A DNA stretch of 64,000 nt from Peteryoungia ipomoeae. Its GTDB lineage: Bacteria; Pseudomonadota; Alphaproteobacteria; Rhizobiales; Rhizobiaceae. Made by a program: the position numbers and the translations under genes. The notes under the pieces were generated by a model. The model did not search any database and had not been told where the DNA came from. It was given only the letters and a program-made list of their open reading frames with translations. The DNA is taken from contig NZ_STGV01000001.1 in NCBI RefSeq assembly GCF_004912165.1, forward strand, positions 682,001 through 746,000. Reading direction: 5' to 3'. Positions 803 to 4,697 of this stretch are shown here, piece after piece. Every line of letters starts with the position of its first letter. Within the stretch, counting starts at the first letter, position 1.

Positions 803-2248
803 TCAGGCGTTCAGCACGCGACCATAGGCGTCAAGCACACTTTCCTTCATCATTTCCGACAGCGTCGGATGCGGGAAAATCGTGTGCATCAATTCCTCTT
901 CCGTCGTCTCCAGGTTCATGGCGACGACGAAGCCCTGGATCAGTTCGGTCACTTCCGCACCCACCATATGGGCGCCGAGCAGCTCGCCGGTCTTCTTGTC
1001 GAAGATTGTCTTGATCATGCCCTGGTCTTCGCCAAGCGCTATCGCCTTGCCGTTGGCATTGAAGTTATAGCGGCCAACGCGAATGTCGCGACCGGCTTCC
1101 TTCGCCTTGGCTTCCGTCAGGCCAACCGAGGCGACCTGCGGATTGCAGTAGGTGCAGCCAGGGATCTTTGCCTTGTCCATCGGGTGAACGTTCGGCAGGC
1201 CGGCGATCTTCTCGATGCAGATGACGCCCTCATGCTCGGCCTTGTGAGCAAGCATCGGTGGGCCGGCAACGTCGCCGATCGCATAGAGGCCCGGCACATT
1301 GGTCTTGCCATAACCATCGATGACAATGCAGCCGCGATCGGTCTTCACGCCGAGTGTTTCAAGGCCGAGGTTCTCGATATTGCCCTGCACGCCAACGGCC
1401 GAGATCAGGCGATCGGCGGTGATCTGCTGCACCTTGCCATCCTTGGTCTCGACATGGGCGGTGATGGAGTTTGCACCCTTTTCGACCTTGGAGACCTTGG
1501 CCTCGGTGATGATCTTGAGCCCACGCTTTTCGAGCTGCTTGCGGGCCAATGTGGAGATCTCGACGTCTTCCACCGGCATGATGTTCGCCATCAACTCGAC
1601 AACGGTCACATCGACACCCATCGAGCGGTAGAAAGAGGCGAATTCGATGCCGATAGCGCCCGAGCCCATGACGACAAGCGATTTCGGCATGAAGTCCGGC
1701 TTCATCGCCTCGAAATAGGTCCAGATCAGCTTGCCATCCGGCTCGATGCCGGGCAGCGCGCGCGGCCGTGCACCGGTCGCTACGATAATATGCTTGGCGG
1801 TGTAGGTGCCCTCGCCCTTGACGCCCTTCGGAACCGGGTTTTGCGGCTCGACGACAGGCTTGGTCATTTTGCCAACGATCACTTCGCCGGGCTTGGAAAG
1901 CTTGGCTTCGCCCCAGATCACGTCAACCTTGTTCTTCTTCATCAGGAAGGCGACGCCGCCATTGAGGCGGGCCGATACGCCGCGCGAGCGGGCAACCACG
2001 TCCTTGACGTCGGCGGTCATCGTGCCGTTCAGCGTCAGTCCGTAAGACTTGGCATGATTGGCGTGGTCGAGGATCTCCGCCGAGCGCAAAAGCGCCTTGG
2101 TGGGGATGCAACCCCAGTTGAGGCAGATGCCGCCGAGGTGTTCGCGCTCGACGATCGCGGTCTTGAGGCCAAGCTGGGCCGACCGGATTGCGGTCACGTA
2201 ACCGCCGGGGCCGGAGCCGATGATGATGACGTCGTAAGCATTGGACAT
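803..2248 (-). CDS. lpdA: Dihydrolipoyl dehydrogenase (E3 of 2-oxo acid dehydrogenase complexes)
   Basis: A 481-residue flavoprotein that reoxidises dihydrolipoyl groups on E2 using NAD+. Seen: FAD-binding GSGPGGYV at 11-18, the redox-active disulfide pair Cys42 and Cys47 in CLNWGCIPTK, a second dinucleotide fold with GSGAIGIE, and the C-terminal His460-Glu465 pair in HPTLSE that completes the active site in the dimer. There is no N-terminal lipoyl domain. Start at the ATG at 2248, with GAGGAG about 11 nt upstream; a GTG four codons earlier sits too close to that site. It lies in the pdh cluster but is separated from pdhC by an esterase and a DUF465 gene. The DUF465 gene is 75 bp upstream and carries a FixK/FNR-like site, so oxygen control of E3 is possible. 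Confidence 0.97.
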   Translation of the reverse strand: MSNAYDVIIIGSGPGGYVTAIRSAQLGLKTAIVEREHLGGICLNWGCIPTKALLRSAEILDHANHAKSYGLTLNGTMTADVKDVVARSRGVSARLNGGVAFLMKKNKVDVIWGEAKLSKPGEVIVGKMTKPVVEPQNPVPKGVKGEGTYTAKHIIVATGARPRALPGIEPDGKLIWTYFEAMKPDFMPKSLVVMGSGAIGIEFASFYRSMGVDVTVVELMANIMPVEDVEISTLARKQLEKRGLKIITEAKVSKVEKGANSITAHVETKDGKVQQITADRLISAVGVQGNIENLGLETLGVKTDRGCIVIDGYGKTNVPGLYAIGDVAGPPMLAHKAEHEGVICIEKIAGLPNVHPMDKAKIPGCTYCNPQVASVGLTEAKAKEAGRDIRVGRYNFNANGKAIALGEDQGMIKTIFDKKTGELLGAHMVGAEVTELIQGFVVAMNLETTEEELMHTIFPHPTLSEMMKESVLDAYGRVLNA

Positions 2249-2323
2249 GGGCGCTTCCACTCCTCGGTTTCTTCAAAGCTTCCGCTGACGCGGAAGCCCG
2301 TTTCGGGATTGGAAGCGATACCC

Positions 2324-2590
2324 TCAGCTTGCGGGTGTCTCGGCTTCCGGTTCGTGGTGAACCAGCATCCCGTAGATTTCATCCTTGAGCTGCATCCGCT
2401 TCTTGCGCATCTCCACAATGTGGAAGTCGTCTGCAGGCTCGATATCGGTTTCGGCGCGGTGGATGTCCCTGTTCACTTCGTGATAGCTCTCGAACAATCT
2501 CGCGAAATGACCATCCGTTTCCTTCAGATGACGCATAAGCGCGACGTGTTCAGGGAATTCCACTGCCAGTTCGTGCGGTGTGTTCGACAT
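2324..2590 (-). CDS. DUF465 (YdcH-like) small protein
   Basis: An 88-residue charged, helical protein. The C-terminal part has the DUF465 signature: a basic stretch MRKKRMQLKDEIYGML at about 62-77 preceded by an acidic helix. DUF465 proteins are short coiled-coil proteins of unknown function. The start at 2590 is supported by GAGGAG about 8 nt upstream. The gene lies between the SGNH esterase and lpdA on the same strand; its promoter region contains a perfect TTGAT-N4-ATCAA site. Family assignment is good; no function can be inferred. Confidence 0.85.
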   Translation of the reverse strand: MSNTPHELAVEFPEHVALMRHLKETDGHFARLFESYHEVNRDIHRAETDIEPADDFHIVEMRKKRMQLKDEIYGMLVHHEPEAETPAS

Positions 2591-2650
2591 GATCCCATCT
2601 CCTCTTTCGGGGTTGATGGGTTCAGGTTAGCCTCAGCGCACAAGACCTCC

Positions 2651-2664
2651 TTGATTTTGATCAA
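2651..2664 (-). promoter_or_regulatory. FixK/FNR-type operator upstream of the DUF465-lpdA unit
   Basis: The 14-bp palindrome TTGAT-TTTG-ATCAA is a perfect match to the FNR/FixK/Anr consensus TTGAT-N4-ATCAA. It lies 60 bp upstream of the DUF465 start codon. If its centre is at -41.5, transcription would start near 2616, with TAACCT at 2629-2624 as a weak -10 element. Placement is right for an activated promoter on the minus strand. Confidence 0.6.
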
Positions 2665-2699
2665 CGCGTCCCGCCTCAACCGGCGGGCAGCGATGTGTG

Positions 2700-3338
2700 T
2701 CAGAGCCCAAGCATCATTCGCACGACGGGTTCTATGCCACGACCGATTGCACGGGTGTTCTCCGCATCGAGATGAATGCCATCGAGCGGCGTGGTTTCGG
2801 CGACAGATCCTGCGTCGAAAAAGCCGCAACCCGTTTCATCCGCCGCATCGCTGTACATGCTGGCAAGCATGGCGCCTTCATCGACCGATCGGTTGAACAT
2901 CGCCCCGAACGCCGCATCCGCCGTCTCGCGAATGGCAGGGGGTGAGACGATCAGGATCTCAGGTCCTTCGAACGAGAAACCCCAGTCATGATGCTGGATC
3001 AACTTCACCAGGCGTTTCAAACCGCTGGTGGCGCCAATCGCAGTCCCCTGGATGCCGCGTTTCAGGTCATTCGTCCCGAGCATCAGGATGACAAGGTCGA
3101 TAGGTTTGTGGGTGGCAAGGATGCTCGGCAGAAGCCTTGCACCATTGCGATCACAATCACCCAGATGGTCGTCATAGGCGGTTGTGCGACCATTCAGGCC
3201 TTCGGCAATCACCCGGACGCCATGACCAAGCGACTTTTGCAAGACGCTTGTCCAGCGGTCCTCATAGGCATGCCGACCCAGGTTGACCGGGTCGTATCCC
3301 CATGTGAGGCTGTCGCCATAGACGAGAACGGTCTTCAT
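2700..3338 (-). CDS. SGNH/GDSL hydrolase, arylesterase/acyltransferase (MsAcT-like)
   Basis: A 212-residue serine esterase of the SGNH fold. Seen: block I GDSLTWG with nucleophile Ser10, block III LGTND with Asn90, and block V DGIH with catalytic Asp186 and His189. Length and the motifs GLNGRTT and LPSILATH resemble the octameric Mycobacterium smegmatis acyltransferase/arylesterase family, whose members hydrolyse short acyl esters and can do perhydrolysis. No signal peptide, so probably cytoplasmic. It sits 16 bp downstream of pdhC on the same strand and is probably cotranscribed with the pdh genes; I recall a similar placement in other rhizobia. The natural substrate is unknown. Confidence 0.85.
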   Translation of the reverse strand: MKTVLVYGDSLTWGYDPVNLGRHAYEDRWTSVLQKSLGHGVRVIAEGLNGRTTAYDDHLGDCDRNGARLLPSILATHKPIDLVILMLGTNDLKRGIQGTAIGATSGLKRLVKLIQHHDWGFSFEGPEILIVSPPAIRETADAAFGAMFNRSVDEGAMLASMYSDAADETGCGFFDAGSVAETTPLDGIHLDAENTRAIGRGIEPVVRMMLGL

Positions 3339-3353
3339 GCCACCGCCTCCGGA

Positions 3354-4697
3354 TCAGACCAGCATGCCCATCGGATTTTCGATGTAGCGCTTGAAGGCGC
3401 CGAGCAGTTCCGCCCCGAGCGCGCCATCGACGCAGCGGTGGTCGGTCGAGAGCGTCACGGTCATGACATTCGCTACCGTCATCTCGCCCTTCGTCACGAC
3501 GACCCGCTCTTCGCCCGCACCGACCGCAAGGATCGTTGCATGCGGCGGATTGACGACCGCCGAGAAGCTCTTCACGCCCATCATGCCCATGTTGGACACG
3601 GCAGTCGTGCCGCCCTGATATTCCTCGGGCTTCAGCTTGCGATCCTTGGCCCGCTTGCCGAGATCCTTCATCTCGTTGGAGATGGTGGACAGGCTCTTTT
3701 CCTCGGCCTTGCGGATGATCGGGGTGATCAGACCACCCGGGATCGAGACTGCAACGCCGACATCGGCATGCTTGTGCTTGACCATGTTGGTATCGGTCCA
3801 GGACACGTTGGCATCCGGCACGTCGCGCAGCGCGAGAGCAAGGGCCTTGATCACCATGTCGTTGACCGACAGCTTGTAGGCCGGTTTGCCATCCCTTTCA
3901 GGCGCGGCTGCGTTGAGTTGGGCACGCAGCGCCAGAAGTGCGTCCAGTTCGCAGTCGACCGACACATAAAAGTGCGGAATGGTCTGCTTCGATTCCTGCA
4001 GGCGTTTGGCGATCGTCTTGCGCATGCCGTCATGCGGCACGAGCTCATAGGAGCCTTCGGCGAAGTTCTTGAGAACGGCCTCGTCCGACGCACCCTTGGC
4101 AAGGGTCGGTGCCGGGGCGGCCGATGGGGCTGCGGCCGGAGCCTTGGCACCGCCACTTGATACGGCCTTTTCGACGTCGCTCTTCACGACGCGACCCTTC
4201 GGGCCGCTGCCGGATAGGGCGGAGATGTCGAGACCGGCTTCCTTGGCCAGACGTCGAGCGAGTGGCGACGAGAACTTGCCAGCGGTTGCCGGAGCACCGT
4301 TGCCGACGCCTCCACCATTGCCTGCAGGCGTCGATGAAGCCGCCGGTGCCGAAGCGGCAGCAGGCGCCGTCGCGGCAGGTGTCTCGGTCTTTGCCGCTTC
4401 CGCCTTCGGGGCGGCGGCAGACCCGCCGCCTGCGGCCGCGGCCGCCACGTCTTCGCCCTCTTCGGCGAGGATTGCGATCAGGGCGTTGACCTTGACGGCC
4501 TCCGTGCCGGCCGGAACGACCAGCTTGGCGATGACGCCCTCATCAACGGCTTCCACTTCCATGGTTGCCTTGTCCGTCTCGATCTCGGCGATGACGTCAC
4601 CGGCCTTGACCGTGTCGCCTTCCTTGACCAGCCACTTGGCCAGATTGCCTTCTTCCATGGTTGGAGAAAGTGCTGGCATGGTGATGTTTACAGGCAT
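3354..4697 (-). CDS. pdhC: Pyruvate dehydrogenase complex E2, dihydrolipoamide acetyltransferase
   Basis: A 447-residue E2 core enzyme transferring acetyl groups to CoA. Domains in order: one lipoyl domain (1-80) with lipoylated Lys43 in [11 protein letters not shown], a long Ala/Pro-rich linker (about 85-140), the peripheral subunit-binding domain (about 142-176, [21 protein letters not shown]), a second flexible linker, and the catalytic CAT domain ending with the DHRCVDG motif that carries the catalytic His. The gene begins 15 bp after pdhB stops, all on the minus strand, so pdhA-pdhB-pdhC form one operon. The acceptor complex is pyruvate rather than 2-oxoglutarate dehydrogenase, judged from the neighbouring two-subunit E1. 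Confidence 0.97.

Follow-up and report, generated by a model that had tools for sequence, protein, structure and literature searches.

The closest described counterparts of the promoter analysed here are the alphaproteobacterial anaerobox promoters of the FNR/FnrN/FixK type, such as those of fixNOQP and fixGHIS, in which a palindrome of the form TTGAT-N4-ATCAA stands at a fixed spacing from the -10 element. A box centred near -41.5 corresponds to the class II position of an activator. As to the genes downstream, intercistronic stems which mask a Shine-Dalgarno sequence and thereby give translational coupling form a general class, and regulated expression of the gene for the E3 subunit is known in principle from Escherichia coli, where lpd is also under the control of FNR and ArcA, albeit in an architecture unlike the one found here. 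For Enterobacteriales, control of aceEF-lpdA by PdhR is described in PMC5343134. According to the text of Dufour et al. (PMC2908626), the target sequences of FNR, FixK and DNR are very similar, and Table 1 of that paper assigns UspA, cbb3 oxidase, HlyD, cytochrome c and Zn-ADH to the FixK/FNR core regulons predicted there; cco and nirK are named as targets in the text of Tsoy et al. 2016 (PMC4999443), and the text of PMC7888657 places activating anaeroboxes in R. leguminosarum at -32 to -34 relative to the starts that it gives.

In the window, i.e. the whole 64-kb stretch of DNA analysed, the ORF list gives the minus-strand gene order pdhA, pdhB, pdhC, SGNH hydrolase, DUF465 and lpdA, the pdh names being read off the open reading frames and those of the hydrolase, DUF465 and lpdA resting on profile matches. 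The features of the region are the following.

2700..3338, minus strand: SGNH/GDSL hydrolase gene, upstream, last of the pdhABC-hydrolase run (PF13472, ORFs)
2651..2664, minus strand: FNR/FixK-type palindrome (anaerobox) TTGATCAAAATCAA (sequence; kept in relatives)
2624..2629, minus strand: predicted -10 element TAACCT, beginning 22 nt past the box (TA-N3-T recurs in relatives)
2599..2604, minus strand: Shine-Dalgarno-like GAGGAG of DUF465 (sequence)
2324..2590, minus strand: DUF465 (type A) gene, 88 aa, proposed conserved target (PF04325, E 3.5e-18; helical model)
2304..2317, minus strand: 5' arm of the putative lpdA Shine-Dalgarno-masking stem, CGCTTCCAATCCCG (fold, pairing tests)
2276..2299, minus strand: inner hairpin of the DUF465-lpdA gap (fold, sequence)
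2252..2266, minus strand: 3' arm with the lpdA Shine-Dalgarno sequence, CGAGGAGTGGAAGCG (fold, pairing tests)
803..2248, minus strand: lpdA, dihydrolipoyl dehydrogenase (E3), 481 aa (Pyr_redox_2, Pyr_redox_dim; start from ORF and sequence)

The 14-mer at 2651-2664 reads TTGATTTTGATCAA on the plus strand and TTGATCAAAATCAA on the gene strand. It is followed after 60 nt by the DUF465 ATG (2590), and the distance from the DUF465 stop codon to the lpdA ATG (2248) is 75 nt; the original prediction of an exact FNR/FixK-consensus palindrome 60 bp before DUF465, of a sensible -10 element (TAACCT at 2629-2624) and of lpdA 75 bp past DUF465 is thus borne out. No second exact TTGAT-N4-ATCAA occurs in the window, where dinucleotide shuffling leads one to expect 0.07 (at least one exact site in 7 of 100 shuffles). 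The relaxed form TTGA-N6-TCAA was likewise found once, at an expectation of 0.94 and hence not above chance, so that the significance of the site rests on its position and conservation. A scan of 2150-3400 for the sigma-70 consensus found nothing. Further down the minus strand, two short ORFs at 121-399 and 508-780 look like membrane proteins, which we take to resemble GlsB/YeaQ/YmgE paralogs.

Absence of the site from close relatives had been named beforehand as an observation that would speak against it, and the opposite was found: TTGA-N6-TCAA is present in 33/33 same-genus loci (own locus included), starting at -70 to -76, and the full TTGAT-N4-ATCAA is kept in 30 of them. This set omits L031 (contig edge), L060 (a second DUF465 in genome G006) and the loci L042, L046 and L067-L071 from other families. 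Conservation across the 33 loci peaks at the box, the GG after the box and the -10 element, and the preceding 25 nt drift. In a wider collection, a box at -110 to -50 is present in 141 of 161 loci, which yield 109 distinct 46-nt downstream sequences; in 93 of these TA-N3-T starts 22-24 nt downstream of the box (offset 22 in 68, 23 in 15 and 24 in 10, with no double counting), as compared to at most 4 of the 109 at each of the remaining offsets between 1 and 40, these box-bearing loci sharing ancestry and not being independent samples. TTGA-N6-TCAA is missing at -110 to -50 from the other 20 collected loci, amongst which L031 and L085 are contig edges.

Given the recurrence of TA-N3-T at offsets 22-24, the box would lie about 41 bp ahead of the predicted start, that is, in the class II position, and the transcription start is predicted near 2617. 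As in the fixNOQP/fixGHIS-type promoters, the box would end about 34 nt ahead of the start; its last base at about -34 compares with the -32 to -34 given for R. leguminosarum, where the text of PMC7888657 leaves the counted base unstated. The palindromic box, its spacing to a -10-like hexamer and conservation above background are all found at this promoter, and a candidate regulator is encoded in the genome; judged by its sequence, the promoter is probably a member of an already known, class II type. Unlike the promoters of fixNOQP and fixGHIS, it stands not before a respiratory or heme gene but before a small gene of unknown function within a run of pyruvate dehydrogenase genes. In one Rhizobium (locus L098), two tandem anaeroboxes precede DUF465, at -91 and -71. 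A leader peptide at the box (ATG or GTG plus about four codons) was considered in some relatives and rejected, as it is missing from other clades and its position would be ahead of the predicted start.

Genome-wide, the exact motif occurs at 10 sites and the pattern read backwards at none. The neighbours of these sites are ccoN, nirK with the divergent nnrS, a universal stress protein gene (usp), and genes for a cytochrome c, a zinc alcohol dehydrogenase, a DUF6455 protein, an HlyD-type protein, a Crp/Fnr regulator closest to FtrB, and DUF465, while one further site lies between MepK-like and NtrC-like genes. A relaxed site begins 70 nt ahead of ccoG, and another is found within the longest hemN ORF, 33 nt from its beginning; as the hemN profile is matched from residue 40 onwards only, this second site probably precedes the true start. 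Both sites belong to one cluster with the FnrL-like gene. The search for known FixK targets suggested with the original prediction therefore recovers ccoN with an exact site, and hemN and ccoG with relaxed ones. As in the fixNOQP/fixGHIS-type systems, known targets thus bear the motif in the same genome, and the UspA, cbb3, HlyD, cytochrome c and Zn-ADH genes bearing sites here have their counterparts in the core regulons of Table 1 of Dufour et al. 2010 (PMC2908626).

Some of these sites deserve a description of their own. At the cytochrome c site, a gene of the choline-binding type, named by reading, is found on the opposite side. At locus L052 (site at 2487) an exact anaerobox stands 22 nt before the longest DUF6455 ORF, and CATGAT, at a -10-like offset after the box, overlaps the ATG of that ORF, so that the true start is probably located further down; the DUF6455 gene, also from a family of unknown function, is on this sequence evidence likely to be another member of the regulon. 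At locus L057 (site at 2865) an exact anaerobox lies upstream of the FtrB-like Crp/Fnr regulator gene, which adjoins apparent urease accessory genes (again named by reading).

As to the protein that may read the box, ten of 25 matches to HTH_Crp_2 in the genome exceed the cut-off, and nine of them read as Crp/Fnr proteins. L002 matches FnrL best (231.8 bits, not reaching the curated cut-off of 300), carries an N-terminal C-x2-C-x7-C, and is encoded close to hemN and cco; L003 and L004 match FixK best with 103.4 and 96.4 bits, also below the curated cut-off of 300. Since the targets of FNR, FixK and DNR are very similar, there is more than one candidate for the acting protein.

With respect to the gene to which the site belongs, a family sample of one genome per genus (lpdA match in 58 of 61 genomes) gives a clear division. 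In the 12 Rhizobiaceae genera with DUF465 before lpdA, TTGA-N6-TCAA is found in 12/12, at -69 to -76 of DUF465, in contrast to 0/46 of the genera without DUF465 in this position, searched over 1.0-1.5 kb upstream of lpdA (1/C(58,12) = 1.1e-12, ignoring phylogeny); one of these 46 has, at -110 to -50, a box with a single mismatch. Amongst the named loci, i.e. the best 80 of 320, of which 79 have enough upstream sequence, lpdA is next in 71, and the box lies at -110 to -50 in 70 of these 71 and in 8/8 scored as having another neighbour. One of the eight, L122, is in fact a broken lpdA, with an lpdA-like start 90 nt downstream whose frame soon leaves the match, which brings the true other-context loci to seven; two of the eight are box-bearing Rhodobacterales loci at which no matches to pdhC, the hydrolase or lpdA were found. 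At the level of the order, where matches were obtained in 100 of 297 genomes and 27 new loci were taken from the best matches, the exact box at -110 to -50 is present in 9/14 with lpdA next and in 7/13 without.

The association extends to the class. Amongst 241 genomes, type-A DUF465 is found in 41 (E <= 1e-8), and 31 of these also encode an FnrN-like protein (E <= 1e-30), as against 60 of the 200 other genomes (p 8e-8, ignoring phylogeny). Where both are present, the region from -100 to -55 holds the exact box in 13/31 and a box with at most one mismatch in 26/31, leaving 5/31 without even the latter, whereas random windows of the same loci give 1.1% and 3.4%, respectively; of the ten type-A genomes with no FnrN-like match, two have a box. 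In a comparison of two DUF465 types over 27 loci, the five with a box are all type A, and no box was found amongst those of the second type ('EHRDLD...', sorted by eye). The site thus tracks DUF465, including where another gene follows, and from this distribution DUF465 is its conserved target and lpdA a lineage-specific passenger.

This distribution bears directly on the main meaning given to the site in the original prediction, namely control of lpdA, and with it of E3, by low oxygen. An explanation in which the main role of the site is to raise lpdA at low oxygen, with DUF465 as a bystander, could draw on the 71 of 79 named loci (amongst the best 80 of 320) with lpdA next, and on a scan that found no terminator-like sites between DUF465 and lpdA. 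It has to account, however, for the absence of the relaxed site from all 46 genera having lpdA with no DUF465 ahead, for its persistence with DUF465 when a different gene follows, and for its retention at the two Rhodobacterales loci with no pdhC, hydrolase or lpdA match, and is in our view quite unlikely. What stands of the original prediction is an FNR/FixK-type site before DUF465-lpdA, to which class II spacing, known targets and conservation have been added; lpdA as its main object is not supported. As no terminator-like site was found in the gap, lpdA may still gain low-oxygen transcripts by read-through, which would supplement and not replace any lpdA transcription from pdhABC, since pdhABC, DUF465 and lpdA share one strand.

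It is also conceivable, if unlikely, that the box is read by a relative of the DNR/NnrR type responsive to NO or nitrite, and not by FnrN or FixK: the nirK/nnrS site has a Crp/Fnr gene (L001) at a distance of about 3 kb, and the targets of FNR, FixK and DNR are described as very similar in the text of PMC2908626. Against this stands the co-occurrence of type-A DUF465 with FnrN-like proteins given above, a survey that ignores phylogeny and covers FnrN-like proteins but not DNR. The notion of a chance palindrome, or of a structural element to which no regulator binds (a piece of a terminator, for instance), might appeal to the fact that one window should by chance contain about one relaxed motif, yet the constant distance between box and -10-like hexamer in 93 of the 109 distinct sequences, the conservation peak at the box amid drifting flanks, and a scan that found no terminator-like site at the box render it extremely improbable. 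The palindrome is thus very probably, as far as sequence can tell, a low-oxygen (FNR/FixK) switch.

Turning to the gap between DUF465 and lpdA, the DUF465 stop codon and the 5' arm of the stem are separated by 6 nt. RNAalifold, applied to the MAFFT alignment A3 of the gaps, returned no pairs; as the arms look out of register in this alignment, a partner-permutation test was used instead, comprising 49 distinct arms from 96 gaps (length 45-110), 37 gaps being aligned. Duplexes with the arm's own partner have a mean of -20.7 kcal/mol, in contrast to -15.0 (sd 0.55) for permuted partners, and none of 20,000 permutations was as low. Shuffled or reversed arms showed no comparable own-partner gain; a small gain was seen in two of five shuffled-arm controls (22 and 12 of 1,000 permutations as low), amounting to 0.8 kcal/mol as against 5.7 for the real arms. 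Nor was there a comparable gain for 46 lpdA genes without DUF465, taken over a fixed window from -84 to -50 that is not anchored to a stop codon. Counted on the alignment, 72.4% of cells are paired versus 37-53% for slid partners, and cells changed on both sides number 19 versus 11.1 in shuffles (1/500), with no excess of pairs changed on both sides (7 versus 5.8). A per-genome stem test gave p <= 0.01 in four of 12 genomes with DUF465 and in none of 46 without; the arms of the window itself reach p 0.073.

At locus L144, a gene is inserted after DUF465, and a stem of GGCCTGCTCC and GGAGCAGGCC masks the start of the inserted gene, while the fold pairs the lpdA Shine-Dalgarno with a distant sequence; locus L141 has the same arms before a would-be TTG start. 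Taken together, the arms covary and the downstream Shine-Dalgarno is masked, with RNAalifold negative and the alignment count and the per-genome test mixed. This suggests, with moderate confidence and on sequence grounds, a translational-coupling stem, which resembles the general class in having one arm just past the upstream stop and in masking the next Shine-Dalgarno. A scan of 2100-2800 against Rfam gave three matches, all far below the gathering scores, and the stem is possibly a new instance of this class that does not fall into a described family. At locus L189, a stem with a Shine-Dalgarno-like sequence follows right after the DUF465 stop, lpdA lying about 300 nt further; this stem may be a relic or a terminator.

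The DUF465 protein itself matches PF04325 with 65.8 bits (cut-off 25, E 3.5e-18), and its model is helical (H8-11, H13-25, H27-47, H55-77; mean pLDDT 86). Amongst solved structures HP1242 (1zhc; profile E 2.8e-9) is the closest; it has no assigned function and is the only high-probability match in a Foldseek search (probability 1.00, E 0.048). Invariant residues in alignment A4 include H6, H28, Y36 and H44. In the open-licence literature, outside of supplements, DUF465 was not found together with FNR, and neither lpd nor DUF465 is named in the searched text of PMC2908626 and PMC4999443, again outside of supplements. Unnamed 'hypothetical protein' entries in Table 1 of Dufour et al. (PMC2908626) might include DUF465, and, as the text of PMC4634722 counts annotated hypothetical proteins amongst the ChIP-seq targets of FnrL in R. 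capsulatus, DUF465 could be one of the unnamed genes in such published lists of FNR targets. Elsewhere, SMc03999 appears as a DUF465 gene in the text of an S. meliloti lipid study (PMC8343143), and E. coli ydcH, a possible counterpart of the DUF465 gene of the window, is tabulated in PMC1626474 amongst genes with raised expression in acid under anaerobic conditions, and is given in PMC4207228 as an OxyR target and as induced by peroxide.

The reading that we consider probable as a whole is that of a class II FNR/FixK-type operator with DUF465 as its target and lpdA as a stem-coupled passenger. When oxygen is low, the operator, about 41 bp ahead of the start site, would be occupied by FnrN (Fe-S) and/or a FixK-like protein, which would bring RNA polymerase to TAACCT. 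Transcription would start near 2617, pass through DUF465 and continue into lpdA. The stem would hide the lpdA ribosome-binding site, and, as it begins 6 nt beyond the DUF465 stop, ribosomes finishing DUF465 would probably open it.

This reading would put the DUF465 family, of unknown function, into the low-oxygen response with a concrete promoter, and the stem between DUF465 and lpdA offers a specific proposed mechanism of coupling, while the link between oxygen and E3, attractive as it is, is probably secondary and has been corrected accordingly here. A more far-reaching and distinctly tentative idea is that type-A DUF465 is a widespread protein of the alphaproteobacterial FNR/FixK regulon which, in one lineage, gates E3 synthesis through a ribosome-opened stem and may act on E3 complexes. 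If true, low-oxygen induction and the translation of DUF465 would jointly set the supply of E3.
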